From: Labyrinthula sp. Ha
Taxonomy: Eukaryota > Sar > Bigyra > Labyrinthulida > Labyrinthulaceae
NCBI GenBank assembly: GCA_015227615.1
Contig: JAALGZ010000001.1
Location: 1,922,001-1,986,000, forward strand
Direction: 5' to 3'
Length of the DNA stretch: 64,000 nt
How positions within the stretch are numbered: position 1 is the first letter of the stretch; every line of letters begins with the position of its first letter. Position numbers and translations under genes: made by a program. Of the stretch, positions 36,975 to 44,794 are shown one piece after another. The notes below the pieces were generated by a model that did no database searches, was not told the DNA's origin, and was given only the letters and a program-made list of their open reading frames with translations.

Positions 36975-36979
36975 AAACC
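36975..36979 (+). repeat. Candidate left target duplication of the LTR element
   Basis: The bases aaacc directly precede the 5' LTR, and the same five follow the 3' LTR at 44790-44794 if the LTRs end ...AAT. Five bp is normal for Ty3/Gypsy elements. Confidence 0.6.
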
Positions 36980-37447
36980 TGTTGAAATAAGTTAGTGTTT
37001 GGTTTATAAATATAGAAGAAGGAGCTGATGTTCTGACCTCTAGTAATTGAAATATAGGGATAGAAGTGAGTTGAGTGGGTGAGGTATAACCGAACCTTTG
37101 CTGAGAGCCAAGCGGAGCTCTTGTGGGTAATGAAGGGCTTGTGTAAAATTGATATTTGATTAAAAGCAGTTGTATTTATAAGAAGTGGATATCATTGATG
37201 ATTGGATAAATCGGTGGCAATGTCATATTGGAACGTAACGAAAGAAGAAAAAGTGATGACGTGGTTTGGTGAAATACAGTTCTGACAATGATCGAACACG
37301 AACTGTAGTTTGTTGAATACAGTTTTCCATAAGTTTTTTAAAGCCTTAAGTAATTGATAGAAGAACTTTACAAGGTTTTTAGAATACCAGGAAGAAAAGG
37401 AAGTTAATAAAAATAAGAAGTGTAATTGAGAACTAGACGTACTAAAT
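36980..37447 (+). repeat. 5' LTR
   Basis: 468 bp beginning TGTTGAAATAAG. It matches 44323-44789 with about 27 differences by eye. These are very uneven: about 22 fall in the first 190 bp and about 5 in the remaining 280 bp. Confidence 0.93.
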
Positions 37448-37449
37448 AT

Positions 37450-37467
37450 TGGATCCAATATTCGTAT
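37450..37467 (+). other. Candidate primer-binding site
   Basis: TGGATCCAATATTCG begins two bases after the 5' LTR. A leading TGG fits the CCA end of a tRNA. I could not match it to a specific tRNA. It overlaps an 18-bp perfect palindrome. Confidence 0.4.
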
Positions 37468-37869
37468 AAATAGTACGAATTATAATAGTTATGGGAAAAG
37501 TGAATAAAAACAGAAGTGAGCCACCGGTCCTAAGATCGGAAAGTGGTAAAAAATCAGGAGGAAGGGTGGTTGCAGAAATTAGTTCTAGGAACATAATCGC
37601 CCGAGATGCAGAGACTCCTCAGTAGTTGAATCAGGTTGCGGTTGAGGAAAGTTGTAGCCAAGGACATCTGCGGGATAATAGTGAAGTATATAGAAGTGTC
37701 TCTGATCCGGGAGAAAACACGACAGCCCCGGATCATGTGGTGGTGACCCGCGAAAGTTGGGAGTAGCTTCAGCAAAATTATGAATCGTTACAGCTCCAAA
37801 TGAGTACACTACTCCAACAGGTAAAGGCTAACGTGCCCATAGGAAACAGCGGAAAAGTTAGGAAGGATC

Positions 37870-38900
37870 TGTTTGGAGTTAAAGCCAGAGGGAAAGCCGA
37901 GTCCAGATTGCAGGATGGAGGAGAATCAGATTCAGAGAACAGTGACTAGTCAGCATCTTCATTTAGCTCTGTTGACTCGGACAACAGCGCGAGAAATACA
38001 AGTGTCTGGAGGGAAAGTGAAAGGAAGCGCGCAAGGGAGGAAAATTACAAAGGAAAACCCTTGTTACGATCCCTAGAACCTAGCAAGGTAGCTGCCTTCC
38101 TAGAGGAATTCCAGGTGTAGGAGGCAAATGTAGTCAAAAGAAGGCTGGATTTACCTTAAGCAGACATTTCTCTGTGCATGAGTAACCAGGTGCAGATGTT
38201 GTTACAAGATGAGGGTGCCAGCGTGATGCGAAGGAGATCCGCAATGAAATACCTCAACAATATTAACAAGCTACAAAATATGGGAAAGGAAAAGATACTG
38301 ATGAGGAAAGTAGAAAGCCTGGCGTGGACTAATGAGGGTACGCCTATGAAGTCCATGACCCGTTTTTTAAAACAAGTTACGGACATGGTAAGGGGAATCA
38401 GGTGGGAGACTAAGTCAATGGAGAAGGAGTTTTGTTTGAAAGTAATTAGGAAATTGCCTTTAGAGTTTGGATCAGGAAATGCAAAAGAAACCCAGTCGAT
38501 AAAAAAGTGGAAGACAGTGGGGAAATTAAGGAGAAGTTTGAATAAGGCGGCCATGGTGATATCGGAATGGGATCTTCAGAGTCCTGCTTTGAAATTTTTG
38601 GCCAATGAACCACTAAAAAATAAGAGTAAAGTATGTGTAAAGTCTGATCCAGCCTCGAAACAGCGCCCTAAGAACCCTCGAGAGGAGTCAAACTCCTCGG
38701 AGGGGACAAGAAGGACGACATTGGAAGACGGATCTGTAAAACATTTCCTGCCGAAGACCTGGTCTAAGGATAAGAGGAAGCAGTACGGCATGGACCACAA
38801 CTTTTGCCTCTTTTGCTATACTAGCAATCACCGATTTGATGACTGCAAGTTAGTTAAACAGCGGGATGCAAAGAAGGAGAAGACGGTGAATGAGATTGAA
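37870..38900 (+). mobile_element. Gag-like region with CCHC zinc knuckle
   Basis: Basic, helix-rich sequence ending in a C-x2-C-x4-H-x4-C knuckle (CLFCYTSNHRFDDC, about 38,805-38,846). Knuckles of this type bind the element's RNA during packaging. No protease motif follows it, although that is where Ty3/Gypsy elements usually have one; an acidic linker lies there instead. Confidence 0.7.
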
Positions 38901-39329
38901 AACGAAGTGATTAGTGGTAAAAAGCTGGAGGGAGGAGAAAGTAGTTTGGAGGATGAAGAGTCAGTATTTGTAGGAGTAGTTGAAGTGTTGGATGTTGAAG
39001 AGGATTATGAGGAAGAATCGGAGGATTTCAGGCTGGGGTTTCTAGATCCAGTGGATTTGGGAGAAATTCTGGTAGAAGATGAATTTGAGGTAGGAGGAGA
39101 TGTAGGAAAGCCGCATCTTACAGATAAGAAAGTGCAGCAATACCTAAAAAGTAAAGTAAAAGAGAAAGTTTCATCTGGGGCGAGAGAAGGAACAATAACT
39201 CCAAATCAGGCTCAAGAGATGGAGAGCATTTTATTGAACCATCTTGAAGCCTTTGGGTCGAAAATCGCAAAATGTGACTTCAATAACCTTTCACCTATGA
39301 AGATCAAGCTGCGTGAAGGGGTCGCGGAA

Positions 39330-39920
39330 TATGTAAGCAAGCCTTACCCAATGTCCAAGGTCAGCATGGAAGCCCTAAAGAAAAAATTAAGAGAACTAGA
39401 GGATATGGGGATGATTAGGAGAGAACCCAACCCTTTCTTCTCTTCCCTTGTGATTATGGTTCCAAAACCAGGAAAGAGGGATGAATATAGAATGGTAGTT
39501 GATCTCGGTAGATGTAACAGGTCTGTTAAGCCTACTGGAGCAGGGCTGCCAGATTTGGAGACTCGGGTAGCCTGGTTTAAAGGCACTGAGAGATATTTCG
39601 GGAGTTTCGATGGATTAAGTGGATTTGATTATTTGAGAGTGGATGATGGAGCTCAGAAATACTTGGGGATGGTGACGCCGTGGGGTTGCTATACTATGTT
39701 GATGGCCCCCAGGGATACATTAATACCCCCCAAGTATACCAAGAAAGATTGATCAACGAGATCCTGGGCGATGTAAATGAGAACAGTTTGTTCGGCAACG
39801 GAGTTCTGTAGTGGATCGACGATTCACTGATTTATGCTTCATCCTGGGAAGAATATAAGGATATCCTTTTTCAATTCTTGACCCAGTGCATAAACGTGAA
39901 TTTTCGGCTAAATTTAGATA
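39330..39920 (+). mobile_element. Reverse transcriptase region
   Basis: Ty3/Gypsy RT blocks are visible: FFSSLVIMVPKPGKRDEYRM, then YFGSFDGLSGFDY (first catalytic Asp block), then TPWGCYTMLMAP. The W-I-D-D-S box, the counterpart of Y-x-D-D, lies near 39.81 kb. The domain copies element RNA into DNA. Confidence 0.85.
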
Positions 39921-40309
39921 AGTGTGATTTGATCAAAGGGAAAGTGAGGTAGTGTGGGAGAATATTGGAGAATGGGATATGGAGATATGACGAGAAATAT
40001 TTTCTGAAGTTGGAGGATATGGGGGAGGTAAGGAAGATGGGTCAGCTGAAGGATTTGGTCTATGTAAGCACATGGTTAGCTTCAAGTGTACCAGACTTAT
40101 CTAGAAAATGTCACTACCTGAGTAAAAGGATGAAGGAACTTGAACGAGATCTAAAAATAAAATATAAAAAGAAACTAAATAAGCATCAGCGGAGAGCTGC
40201 ATCAGTGGAAGAGTGGTGGAGTGAAGAAGATCAGGATGAGGTTCGCATATTCTTGAAGTCCATATCTTCCAGTGCTGCGAACAGTTTGAAGTTGTATTAG
40301 TTGGATAAG

Positions 40310-40640
40310 AGGATGGCTATATTCACGGATGCGAGTTTCCAGTTTTGGTCAGGAGTGCTGGGGCTGTGGGACAGTGACGGGTGGTTACCTATATACTTCG
40401 GAAGTGGAGAGTTTCTAGGTAGCAGCATCTATTGGAGCATGACCGACAAGGAGATCTATCCAATCATTAAGCTAATGAAAAGGCATAGATTTATATTGTA
40501 TGGCCACCAGACACCCATAGAACTCTATACATATCACAAGAACTGATTTACCTAATGACAACAAAAAAGGACATGAAAGCTGCTACATTTGGACGGGTCC
40601 AGAGATGGATACTCACCATCCAGGAGTTTGTCACTGTTCT
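40310..40640 (+). mobile_element. RNase H region
   Basis: The segment has F-T-D-A-S (first acidic block), then D-K-E-I-Y-P-I-I and L-Y-G-H. This is the layout of Ty3/Gypsy RNase H, which removes the RNA strand. It is followed by the usual W-I-L-T-I-Q-E and N-A-L-A-D-L-L-T-R tether. Confidence 0.78.
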
Positions 40641-41129
40641 TCATCATCTTCCACGGGAGACCAATGCTTTGGCAGATCTGTTGACGAGGTGGGGATATGT
40701 GGAGTCGGAGGATACACTAAGTTTGAAAGCTAAGCTAGTAGATAGCAATGGGGATGTAGGTTGGAGAATTCGATGGAAGGGGATAACCTTTTTTGCGAAC
40801 AGTGAGGATGTAGATGTTGAAAAGATGGAGATTGCTAATATGATTGATGGACCTGAAGGCGAAGAAGTATTGGAGGTAGAAGTGAATAAGGGTACAGGGT
40901 GGAGGTTTGATCCAGAGGTGGTAAAGTTTGTAGAGAATAGGGTTGCCGTACATTTTCCTAAAAGGAAGAAGGAACTAAGAATGCTTACCATGCTCGAGAT
41001 AGTGAAGATCCAAGAAGAATGCGGTATCAATCTGGATAAGATGGAAGCGCCTCGCAATACATCCGGAGCCTGGATCAATAAAAATGGAAAAGTAATTATA
41101 CCTGGAGAACTGATTGAGTGATTTGTTGT

Positions 41130-42150
41130 TACCGCTCATAATGCCTCAGGACACGGGAGTGTGGATGAAGTCATGTGCATTCTGGAACCTTTCTTTTTCG
41201 TCGATATACCTAGAAATAAACAAAAAATCTTAGTACAAAATCTGAAGAAATGGTGTTTACATTGTGACAAGGATAGAAAAATGATCCGTAGACCTTTGGG
41301 GGAAATATACCACCCTTCTGAAGGAGAGGTGGTGTTACACCTGGATTTTTTGAAGGTAAAGGAATCATATATCTTGGTCATTCCGGAAGATGTGTCAAGG
41401 AAAGTGTTGTTAGTTGAAGATCCAAGTCCTTGTGCAGCGGTGGTTGTAAGGGCTTTGGTAATGTGGAAAGAGTTGATAGGACTGCCGCCCACGTTTACTC
41501 TACTGTCGGACAATGGTTCTCATTTTAACAACGAAGTATTAAGGCAGTTTGAATCAAGATTCCCAGCTGAACATAAATTTTCAATAGTATATAGTCCTTG
41601 GAGTAACGGATCTATTGAAGTAATGAATAGACTTGTTCTTCGGGTACTACTGCAGTTGTGCAGTTGTTATATGATCGATAAAGATAAATGGAGTGAGTTA
41701 TTGCCCCAAGTAATGGATGTCATGAATAATAGCCGTTCACGTCATGGGTATTCTCCAAATGAGTTAACCACATATCTCTATACTGCAAAAGGATTGAATA
41801 AAATAGCAGAGATTGATAAGACAAGTATTTTGCCTATAGTGACTCACGGAAAACTTAGAGAATGTAAAGATCCTGAGAAGTTTAAGTCAGCTGCGGAAAA
41901 GTTGATGCAAATTATTTTGAATAGGAGAAATACAGTAGAACCCATCATTAAAGAAAGCAGAGATAGATCAAGGAAATATATTAATGCTAAGTTCAGGTCA
42001 ACAAGTGTAAACTTTGCGGCTGGAGATTTTGTATTGATTTATAGAGTAGGTACACCGTGGTTAAATGATAAAATAAGTTTGAGATGGATTGGACCATATA
42101 TAGTAGCAGCGGTTGAAGGTGAATATTGTTATAGGGTAAAGTCCATTGAA
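41130..42150 (+). mobile_element. Integrase region
   Basis: It begins with an H...H...C-x2-C zinc-binding pattern (TAHNASGHG, then KWCLHC). The catalytic core has D in HLDFLKV (about 41.34 kb), D in LLSDNGSHFNN (about 41.51 kb) and E in NGSIEVMNR (about 41.62 kb). A G-D-F-V-L-I-Y segment with W-I-G-P-Y follows, the usual C-terminal integrase fold. Confidence 0.9.
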
Positions 42151-42249
42151 GGAAAATAGTAAGTAGTTCATTCGCAACGAATGATTCTGTATCAGTAAAA
42201 ATCTGAGGATTTTAAGGTAAACTCAGAAATAAAACATAGTTTTTATTAT

Positions 42250-42420
42250 AACCAGGGATCTTATTACGTAAAAAAGCTGCTAGATTTGAGAAATACAATA
42301 GATGGATTTGAGGTGTTGATCTGGTGGAAGGGATTTCCAAAGAGTGATGCAAATTGGCAAAGCATGCGCAGACTCTATGAAGATGTTCCTCAGATAGTAA
42401 AAGAGTTTGTAAGAAAAAAT
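42250..42420 (+). mobile_element. Chromodomain-like region
   Basis: After the integrase lies YVKKLLDLR, FEVLIWWKGFPKSDANW and a closing helix VPQIVKEFVRK. This is the Y...W-K-G...W pattern of chromodomains that mark chromoviruses. In that group the chromodomain is thought to steer integration to particular chromatin. Confidence 0.82.
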
Positions 42421-43129
42421 AAGGATGATACTATAGATTTTGAAAATGCTCATAAACTGATTAGAGAGTGGGAGAGAAGTAAGAATAGTAAAGAGATAAA
42501 TTTGATTGCAGAGAGTACCAGTAAAGTGTCGAAGAATGTTTGGTTGAAGGAGAGAATGAAGATAATTAAGTATCCTAGCAGAATGAGATCAATGTAAGAA
42601 GGAGTGCCAGATGGTTCAAGTAGATCCAGAGGTTGGTCATTGGAGGAGAAGGTAGTATTTGAAAAGTTGAGCTTGAAATTTGTAATAGGAAATTGGAAAG
42701 AGATATGTTCGCTGGGTTGTCTCCCTGGCAAAACTAAGTCTCAAATGGTGACTCTTCTTTAAGCATCTTTAGGCAGCCAATCAATAGGGGTATATAGAAT
42801 GTTGAAAGTAAAATTTGAGAAAATAAAAGAATATAATGATGGTCGACAGAATGTGTATAGGCGTAATGGAATAATTGTACGAACTGGAAAAGAAAGATCA
42901 CCGTCTGAATTAAATAAAGAAAGGGAATTTCTTAGAAAGAAGTTTGAAGTACAGAGAGATGGGGAGCAAGTTGAGATTCCAGTTTTGAATGTGAAAGATG
43001 TAAATAGTCCACGTCTTACTCTTCAAGATATCAAGAAAATGATAAAGTTCATAAATGATTCAAGGATAGAGAAGGAATTCAAGGAATCTGTGAATTATAA
43101 TGAAGATAACGCAGCAGAGGTGACCTGGC

Positions 43130-43460
43130 CAAAAGATAGCTTTAGATCAAAAATCGGGAATAAGTGGTATAAAGTGTTGCTTGACAGTGGTGCGGGGATT
43201 AGCTGTATAGGAAGCAACATGGTATCTTCATCTGAAATAAAAGCTGAGGGTGAGGAGTTGGCTGGGTTAAGTAATGTATTTGGTGTAAGTGGGAGGAAGT
43301 TGAAAATAGTAGGATAGGTTTGGAAGGAAATCAACTTAGTGCATCCTAGAGTAAAAATGAATTTGGGAAAGGTGTGTTTGTATGTTTTGGAGAGATCTAT
43401 GAATAAAATAATAGTAGGAGAGAAAGTATTGAAAAAATATAAACTGAGACCTGCGGATGT
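43130..43460 (+). mobile_element. Retropepsin-like protease region placed after the integrase
   Basis: KVLLDSGAGISCIG is the D-S-G-A active-site loop of retropepsins. A flap-like stretch follows, then a hydrophobic K-I-I-V-G-x-x-V-L-x-x-Y segment, the equivalent of the I-L-G-x-D-x-L region. In Ty3/Gypsy elements this domain normally sits between the knuckle and the RT. Here it is some 4 kb further on. Confidence 0.75.
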
Positions 43461-43779
43461 GTTGATGGGGCGATGTAAGAATGTTGATCTTGAAATAAAT
43501 GCTTTTGAAGAAAATTTAAAAGGAAAATGTTTGAAGGAATGGGAGGATTTGTATAAATGTGAGCTGAATAAGAAAGTAGAGAGAAAAAATTATAGAAAGT
43601 TGTTTTCTGAATATTTGAAGAGTCATAATAATTGTTTTGATGGAGTTCGAGTAGGTGAAATTAGAGATAATTTGTATAAATTAGAGGATTTAGAAGAAGT
43701 GGGAGAGCAGTATTTTGTTGTTTATAAACAGCCTAGAAGGAGTAGATATATGATTTCGGATGTGTTAAAGTTGAATTTG

Positions 43780-44300
43780 AAAGTAGTAGGTGAATATGAT
43801 GTTGTTTTACTTGATCCTGCTTGGGATGATGGAGTGTCGTCTAATCCTACAAGGGGATTGTCAATAACTTATCCAACCATACAAGTGAATCAAGTAAAGC
43901 AGATCCCCGTTAATAAGCTCTGTCCTGTTGGAGTTGTAGCTTTGTGGGTGACAAATTCGAAGTTGCAGGAGGGAATCGATATTTTGAAAATTTGGGGATG
44001 TCGTTTAGTTGAAGTAGTAGTATGGGTAAAAAAGACCAGTAGCGGAAAACTTTGGCATTTTCATGGACAAATCTCGCGGCATAATAAGGAAATATTGCTG
44101 TTTTCGGTTAGAGGAAAATCCCTTTTATCTAAATCAAGAAGTGGAGATGTGATAATGAGTAAAGTTCGTCAACAAAGTAGGAGGCCAGATGAGGTTTATC
44201 AACTGCTGGAAAGACTAAATCCTGGTGCTAGATATTTAGAGTTATTCGGGAGAAGGTGGCATTGTCGTGAAGGTTGGTGTACTATAGGTTTAGATGGAGC
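43780..44300 (+). mobile_element. MT-A70-type adenine-N6 methyltransferase domain
   Basis: The order of motifs matches METTL3/METTL4-class enzymes: YDVVLLDPAW (DPPW-type motif), VVALWVTNSKLQEGIDILK, then WGCRLVEVVVWVKK, then HNKEILLFSVRGK, then RRPDEVYQLLERLNPGARYL, then ELFGRRWH and a final W-x-T-I-G-L-D. Human METTL3 shows the same chain of phrases (LWVTGRAMELGR, KPDEIYGMIERLSPGTRKIELFGR). The family moves a methyl group from S-adenosylmethionine to N6 of adenine in RNA or, for some members, DNA. It lies just before the 3' LTR inside the element, so it belongs to the element and not to a neighbouring host gene. It is the best preserved part. Confidence 0.88.
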
Positions 44301-44312
44301 GTCGAGCTTATA

Positions 44313-44322
44313 AAGAAAGCAG
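44313..44322 (+). other. Polypurine-tract candidate
   Basis: A purine-rich run (aaagaaagcag) directly before the 3' LTR, where plus-strand synthesis is primed in LTR elements. Confidence 0.5.
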
Positions 44323-44789
44323 TGTTGAAATAAGTTAGTTTTGGTTTGTAAATGTATGAGAAAGAGCTGATGTTCTGACCTCTAGTGATTGAAATAAAAA
44401 GATAGATGTAAGTTGAGTGGGTGAGGTATATCCGAACTTTTGTTGAGAGCCAAGCGGAGCTCTTGTGGGTGATAAGAGGTTTGTGTAAAATAGATATTTG
44501 ATTAAAAGCAGTTGTATTTATAAGAAGTGGATATCATTGATGATTGGATAAATCGGTGGTAATGTCATATTGGAACGTAACGAAAGAAGAAAAAGTGATG
44601 ACGTGGTTTGGTGAAATACAGTTCTGACAATGATCGAACACGAACTGTAGTTTGTTGAATACAGTTTTCCATAAGGTTTTTAAAGCCTTAAGTAATTGAT
44701 AGAAGAACTTTACAAGGTTTTTAGAAGACCAGGAAGAAAAGGAAGTTAATAAAAATAAGAAGTGTAATTGAGAACTAGACGTGCTCAAT
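44323..44789 (+). repeat. 3' LTR
   Basis: 467 bp, the direct repeat of 36980-37447. The distal ~280 bp are nearly identical to the 5' copy. Confidence 0.93.
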
Positions 44790-44794
44790 AAACC

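Follow-up and report, generated by a model that had tools for sequence, protein, structure and literature searches.

MT-A70 adenine methyltransferase domains in Ty3/Gypsy-type LTR retrotransposons of Labyrinthula sp. Ha

The LTR element in the window

The window, a 64,000-nucleotide stretch of contig JAALGZ010000001.1 from Labyrinthula sp. Ha, contains a decayed 7.8-kb Ty3/Gypsy-type LTR element at 36980-44790 on the forward (+) strand, the strand of all window features described below. Its 5' LTR (36980-37448) and 3' LTR (44323-44790) are 94.7% identical over 470 aligned columns in a self-BLAST comparison, and the flanking letters show a 4-bp target-site duplication, AACC, at 36976-36979 and 44791-44794. 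Between the LTRs lies a decayed gag-like region (37491-39125, 3' limit approximate), located by tblastn of an uninterrupted copy and containing a CX2CX4HX4C knuckle read by eye at 38805-38846. It is followed by pol domains in the order RT-RNaseH-integrase according to Pfam, namely a frameshift-interrupted reverse transcriptase (RT; 39440-39955, 5' limit approximate; tblastn and PF00078, E 1e-6, 29.1 bits vs a cut-off of 29.6), an RNase H (40217-40573; PF17917, E 6.5e-11; PF17919, E 7.7e-10) and an integrase core (41335-41598; PF00665, E 6.2e-6, below the curated cut-off). An 18-bp perfect palindrome (37445-37462) extends across the 5' LTR end into the site where a primer usually binds. The window has no Rfam match and no tRNA.

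An earlier note, made from the sequence alone, had placed an MT-A70 adenine methyltransferase domain at 43780-44300, between the integrase side and the 3' LTR. Both the domain and its place were confirmed: a scan of three frames of 43500-44450 matched PF05063 at 43795-44292 (+) with an E value of 7.3e-34 (3.7e-33 in a second scan) and a score of 117.6 bits, the cut-off being 23.9; the match extends over positions 1-171 of the 172-position profile. The domain forms the C-terminal part of an open frame at 43318-44313. Three segments that the note had not listed separate it from the integrase, including a chromodomain (42265-42414; PF00385, E 6.6e-4, below the curated cut-off in the window copy), a Myb/SANT-like segment (42616-42792, limits approximate) recognized by alignment with other families, and an aspartyl protease segment 3' of the integrase (43144-43299; PF00077, E 0.06 in the window copy) with DSGA at 43183-43194. 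The predicted DPPW-type motif is present in position (43813-43824), but its letters are DPAW in the window copy and in 13 other rows of its group. Compared with an uninterrupted copy by tblastn, the window element is a relic with 15 in-frame stops and two frame changes, none of which falls within the MT-A70 stretch.

Recurrence, architecture and integrity of related elements

The 50.8-Mb genome of the same organism was searched for further MT-A70 and RNase H places. In the first Pfam search, the best 150 of 354 MT-A70 candidates were scored, all of them over the cut-off and 124 without a stop inside the domain. With three further searches that used divergent element domains, the union of the four rose to at least 337 places, spread over many contigs and counting the host AMT1 gene. 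Of 379 RNase H candidates, 150 were scored. With all four MT-A70 lists, 121 of these 150 have an MT-A70 place 2530-3336 bp (median 3057) further downstream in the same orientation; the count within 2-5 kb grew with the lists from 70 (first list) through 96 (two more) to 121. The control counts were 2 upstream and 1 on the opposite strand (of 150). The 29 RNase H places without an MT-A70 include at least three too near a contig end for the domain (C69:1408, C128:1449 and C100:729, all on the minus strand) and one, C82:39912, at which an MT-A70 fragment was found later and is not counted. They also include all 11 top-ranked places, and therefore an MT-less Gypsy group probably coexists with the MT-bearing elements in this genome.

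The earlier note had set its Ty3/Gypsy claim against a one-off host insertion, with the other copies all lacking the domain. Run genome-wide, this comparison left the claim standing, and a one-off insertion of a host gene at the window is ruled out by the narrowly spaced domain found at 121 of 150 RNase H places. The carrier is of the Ty3/Gypsy type as proposed, and the domain is a recurrent component, under selection, of a large related set of this genome's elements. We regard the anatomy and recurrence of the MT-A70-bearing elements as practically certain.

All eight elements scanned with Pfam have the order RT, RNase H, integrase, chromodomain and MT-A70, with the integrase over its cut-off in three and the chromodomain (PF00385), matched after the integrase in all eight, over its cut-off in four. 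In a PDB sequence search, the RT-RH part of L032 matched 8r0s 'Enzymatic polyprotein' (64.8 bits), next Ty3 RT (4ol8, 48.9; 7q5b, 46) and then retroviral RTs. An alignment of 17 polyproteins showed a Myb-like segment after the chromodomain, in which W, E, two G, P and Q are kept in seven polyproteins aligned separately; L045, L048 and L049 deviate from part of this residue pattern. The Myb_DNA-binding profile PF00249 is over its cut-off in one of seven (L040), weak in two and absent in four. The position of the DSGA protease motif varies: L041, L044, L045 and L046 have it 5' of the RT, and in L031, L032, L033, L036-L040 and L047 it follows the Myb-like segment and precedes MT-A70; it was not found in the scanned frame of L043, L048, L049 and L050. 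In the RT-IN tree, drawn with a midpoint root, the nine copies with the downstream protease fall together (100/99). At the downstream place of L040, the same relative position as in the window, the RVP profile PF00077 is over its cut-off, and a PDB sequence search with this stretch gave insignificant matches only.

Twenty copies were fetched, and LTRs and flanks were examined in 21 copies, the window included. A single frame of 2061-2660 aa including the MT-A70 place near its end was found in 14 of the 20, the polyprotein being split into two frames or stopped early in L031, L034, L042, L048, L049 and L050. Except for L048, for which no LTR pair was found, all copies examined (20 of 21) have LTR pairs, 93.3-100% identical. 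Matching 4-bp flanks are present in 13 of the 16 resolvable copies, which exclude L034, L039, L040, L041 and L048; the flanks are mismatched in L035, L038 and L049. In the copies with matching flanks, the domain therefore lies between LTRs that moved with it, and nearly identical LTRs in several copies suggest recent movement.

Several minor features of these copies were also observed. L033 and L035 have identical 5' flank and LTR-end letters but differ in their 3' flanks, which points to recombination among copies or to a join made in assembly. A single in-frame stop lies between the gag-side frame and the pol frame in L031 (2910-2912, TGA), L048 (2455-2457, TAG) and L049 (2413-2415, TAG), as if pol might be produced by stop read-through in some families. 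Where the 5' LTR ends and a tRNA primer site is expected, perfect palindromes of 12-18 bp lie at or across the LTR's 3' boundary in 18 of 20 copies (the window copy and 19 others), with letters that differ between families; the exceptions, L034 and L041, have LTR ends that are not defined. For comparison, palindromes of at least 10 bp were found in 378 of 10,000 random 42-mers of the same DNA. The palindrome may reflect an unusual way of priming or of forming RNA dimers. Self-priming from the LTR found little support, as a 9-11 nt complement of the primer site lies within the LTR in only one of these 20 copies (L042).

Co-inheritance, selection and affinity of the MT-A70 domain

Distances between elements in RT-IN and in MT-A70 are correlated (17 elements, omitting L034, L035 and L042 of the 20 copies; Mantel r 0.851, with 0 of 5000 permutations as high); the corresponding r for the Myb-like segment is 0.731. 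The RT-IN and MT trees share the close groups L031/L032, L033/L036/L037 with L038, L039/L040, L041-L046 and L049/L050. Two copies on long branches in these trees are discordant: L048 joins L049/L050 in the MT tree (93/91) and lies elsewhere in the RT-IN tree, and L047 groups with L041-L046 in the MT tree (77/83) but, by RT-IN, with the window-type group (100/99). From the correlated distances, the shared position and the shared neighbour, which demonstrate it in part, we conclude that the domain was most likely captured once, before the sampled families split, and would have been inherited with pol since then. Several independent captures from AMT1-like genes, or exchange between Gypsy families, would be compatible with any function of the domain. 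The MT trees do not recover a single element clade, and the placement of L047 and L048 and the variable protease position point the same way. We nevertheless consider such a history unlikely, since all 17 aligned polyproteins have the domain at the same place near the C-terminus, with a Myb-like segment recognisable as its neighbour, RT-IN and MT distances agree overall, and an AU test did not reject all element domains as one clade (p 0.295, at a cost of 4.7 log units).

The element MT-A70 is under purifying selection in five of six copy groups (dN/dS about 0.07-0.2). The mean dN/dS is 0.174 in the window family (nine stop-free copies including the window, with L010, L014, L019 and L025 omitted), 0.102 in a five-copy group and 0.117 in a three-copy group, and the values are 0.204 in a two-copy group and 0.066 for L027 and L028, the former with one stop. 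The sixth group, comprising L015, L022 and L038 (L023 omitted; motif changed in L038), has a mean of 0.523 at a dS of 0.03. Among individual pairs, L036 and L037 have a dN/dS of 0.075 in MT-A70 and 0.057 in RT-RH, L033 and L036 a value of 0.288 at a dS of 0.034, and L044 and L046 a value of 0.198 at a dS of 2.4; the remaining five pairs are saturated at synonymous MT-A70 sites. The recurrence and the conservation of the element domain are thus both shown.

The earlier note had looked to METTL3, METTL14 and METTL4 for relatives of the domain, and did not name the DNA-writer family AMT1/MTA1, to which the best bit scores go. The window domain scores 123.4 bits with Tetrahymena MTA1, 89.9 with METTL3, 36 with METTL14, 33 with METTL4 and 20 with MTA9; the L038 domain gives the same ranking with MTA1 first, and MTA1 exceeds METTL3 by 14-34 bits for these two single domains. 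A profile of 14 rows, one of them the host AMT1, places MTA1 first, METTL3 second and METTL14 third, with MTA9 and METTL4 about equal behind. The low bit scores of the window and L038 domains rule out a METTL14- or METTL4-type origin. In a tree including phage enzymes, from which L045, L047, L048 and 19 further near-duplicate or damaged rows were dropped, the elements fall with AMT1 and METTL3/14, away from METTL4 and the phage MT-A70s that group with it (79/90, weak), which argues against a simple prokaryotic or phage origin. In a phage-free tree, from which L002, L027, L029 and L042 were dropped as near-duplicates, METTL4 is weakly joined to one element group (43/50, flagged long branches). 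AU tests gave p 0.331 for a clade of elements and AMT1, a clade not recovered in the tree, and p 0.082 for elements and METTL3, marginally disfavoured. A tree of the kind the note had proposed gives weak support for placing the domain with AMT1 and METTL3, and is compatible with more than one origin and sister group. Taken as a whole, these comparisons indicate that the element MT-A70 most likely belongs with AMT1 (MTA1), a eukaryotic family that writes 6mA into DNA.

One stand-alone gene (L008; G000:C91:220767-221270) scores far higher, with 250 bits for MTA1 and 128 for METTL3. Its catalytic part lies in one open frame, on a contig without a scored RNase H place, and by sequence it is the predicted host AMT1 gene, the presence of which makes this organism a candidate for robust 6mA. 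When human METTL3 was searched against the same genome, the first match was this host gene (43%), followed by the elements; no METTL3 gene was seen among these unspliced matches, which introns split, and therefore no METTL3 orthologue is apparent. Searches of viral contigs with a five-row alignment and the L041 domain, and of genome contigs with the host AMT1, by a method that needs short near-exact peptide matches, confirmed no relatives.

Possible function and relation to known systems

We read the window element as a relic of a large set of chromodomain-bearing Ty3/Gypsy-type retrotransposons whose polyprotein normally ends in an MT-A70, most likely of the AMT1 type and most likely used to mark element DNA. 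Such a polyprotein runs from gag through RT, RNase H, integrase, chromodomain and Myb-like segment to MT-A70, with the protease either before the RT or between the Myb-like segment and MT-A70. As we infer its activity and purpose, the domain would most likely methylate the DNA of its own element, adding N6-methyladenine (probably at ApT) while that DNA is reverse transcribed and integrated or afterwards, with the Myb-like segment and the chromodomain as guides. In AMT1-bearing species 6mA accompanies transcribed, permissive chromatin, and such marking would therefore help a new copy to resemble an active gene and keep its expression. It is likely that some families at least encode an active N6-adenine methylase, and DNA is a somewhat better candidate than RNA as its substrate; the earlier proposal that the domain marks element DNA or RNA is likewise an inference. 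A permissive mark as the benefit to the element is possible, at rather less than even chances. That such an enzyme is a standard part of their protein suggests that these elements place epigenetic marks themselves. For AMT1 species, 6mA at ApT is reported to follow transcription (PMC12695648). The same source describes transposable elements as not enriched in 6mA in such species, which speaks against the explanation as a whole, as do the limitation of DPPW to 19 of 38 rows, the failure to see an MTA9-like partner in the element polyprotein, the tree conflict of L047 and L048 and the dN/dS of 0.523 in one group.

It is also possible, and unlikely in our judgement, that the domain is an RNA m6A writer acting on the element's own RNA, to serve its packaging or translation or to conceal it from RNA surveillance by the host, as a counterpart of the m6A eraser of an orchid Gypsy lineage. 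The MT-A70 family also includes METTL3, the second-best match of the element domains, part of the element cycle passes as RNA, and the orchid element offers an RNA-side precedent (PMC9289625). The 14-34-bit advantage of MTA1 over METTL3, the failure to see a host METTL3 gene among unspliced matches, and the chromodomain and Myb-like neighbours, which suggest chromatin and DNA, all argue for the DNA-marking reading instead.

The catalytic motif was compared across 38 element rows, together with D209, R357 and N360, which PMC9852454 names among the SAM-contact residues of MTA1, and S332, N370 and E371 (all in MTA1 numbering). DPPW is kept in 19 rows (L015-L018, L020-L024, L026, L028, L030, L039-L041, L043 and L048-L050), and 14 rows of the window group have DPAW; of the remaining rows, L044-L046 have DPPY, L047 has DAPW and L038 has DPPG. 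D209 is retained in all 38 rows, R357 in 37 (T in L049) and N360 in 33 (H in the window copy; G in L015, L022, L023 and L038). S332 is replaced in L013, L039, L040, L041, L043 and L048, and at N370/E371 many rows carry other residues or none, in part an effect of trimming them to the profile match. The substituted motifs (DPAW in 14 rows, DPPY and DAPW in others) would fit a domain that is non-catalytic in most families and is retained because it binds nucleic acids or dimerises, or because it acts as a decoy for the partners of host AMT1 and thereby reduces host 6mA near the element, and inactive MT-A70 partners, METTL14 and MTA9, are described in PMC9852454. This is quite improbable given that DPPW is retained in half of the rows and D209 in every one, that five of six groups are under purifying selection, and that a phage enzyme annotated as an adenine methylase likewise has DPAW. 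A one-off host gene insertion or an assembly artefact in the window, for which only the decay of this copy speaks, is virtually inconceivable beside the at least 337 places on many contigs, the narrow spacing at 121 of 150 RNase H places and the LTR-flanked copies that enclose the domain between matching 4-bp flanks.

What is known, then, is the methylase-bearing retrotransposon, and what seems new is the enzyme family: the earlier note knew of no Ty3/Gypsy family with an MT-A70 enzyme, and none was found in any LTR element among the matches listed from the open-licence PMC literature. DIRS-type elements carry a tyrosine recombinase. Those with a Dam-like methylase resemble the present elements in encoding an N6-adenine methylase, and differ in element type and in a bacterial Dam-type enzyme that is not MT-A70 (PMC5890265, PMC6338049). 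KnitGypsy-Dnmt3 of the charophyte Klebsormidium nitens is likewise an LTR Gypsy element with a host-derived DNA methyltransferase in Pol under purifying selection (Ka/Ks < 0.2 there), whereas its enzyme is a cytosine C5 methylase unrelated to MT-A70, for which the assay reported in the same source showed no de novo methylation (PMC5890265). SymbioLINE-Dnmt and SymbioDIRS-Dnmt3 of dinoflagellates are comparable in their hundreds of retrotransposon methyltransferases in one genus, with RT and enzyme trees reported to be congruent, but are LINE and DIRS elements with cytosine enzymes (PMC5890265). The orchid Gypsy lineage also acquired an enzyme of the N6-methyladenine system; this AlkB demethylase, however, is an eraser and not a writer, demethylates RNA in vitro, and is encoded by an additional reading frame in 25-kb elements (PMC9289625). 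In a Sola1 DNA transposon, a gene has been described that combines a ParB-like domain with an N4C/N6A methylase (PMC12477816). The closest solved relative is the Tetrahymena MTA1/AMT1 complex, in which MTA1 is the catalytic subunit with MTA9, p1 and p2 and the homeobox-like DNA-binding proteins p1 and p2 are comparable in role to the Myb-like segment; unlike the element domain, MTA1 is a free host protein with the partner MTA9 and has no link to retroelements (PMC9852454).

A 2025 survey of 231 eukaryotic genomes and transcriptomes describes MT-A70 families as relatively static after early diversification, and the AMT1 pathway as targeting endogenous genes, unlike cytosine methylases (PMC12695648). 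In the present genome, hundreds of retrotransposon places carry an AMT1-like domain, which purifying selection maintains in most of the groups measured. More speculatively, and at less than even chances, this lineage may have turned an ancestral eukaryotic 6mA writer into a self-marking device by joining an AMT1-type MT-A70, its own Myb-like DNA-binding segment and a chromodomain histone reader in one polyprotein, with the protease in one clade moved beside the writer as if to free it; hundreds of copies might then supply much of the genomic 6mA, marking insertions as permissive. The element set offers a direct test of whether a genomic parasite can write 6mA for its own benefit, and whether the mark preserves expression instead of silencing it.

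In addition, the genome searches returned one Piwi place and two C5-methylase places, and found no light-harvesting proteins. There are 57 actin-family matches in the genome, and ten near-identical, nearly equally scoring unspliced actin frames were observed, for example at G000 C24:692831-815991.
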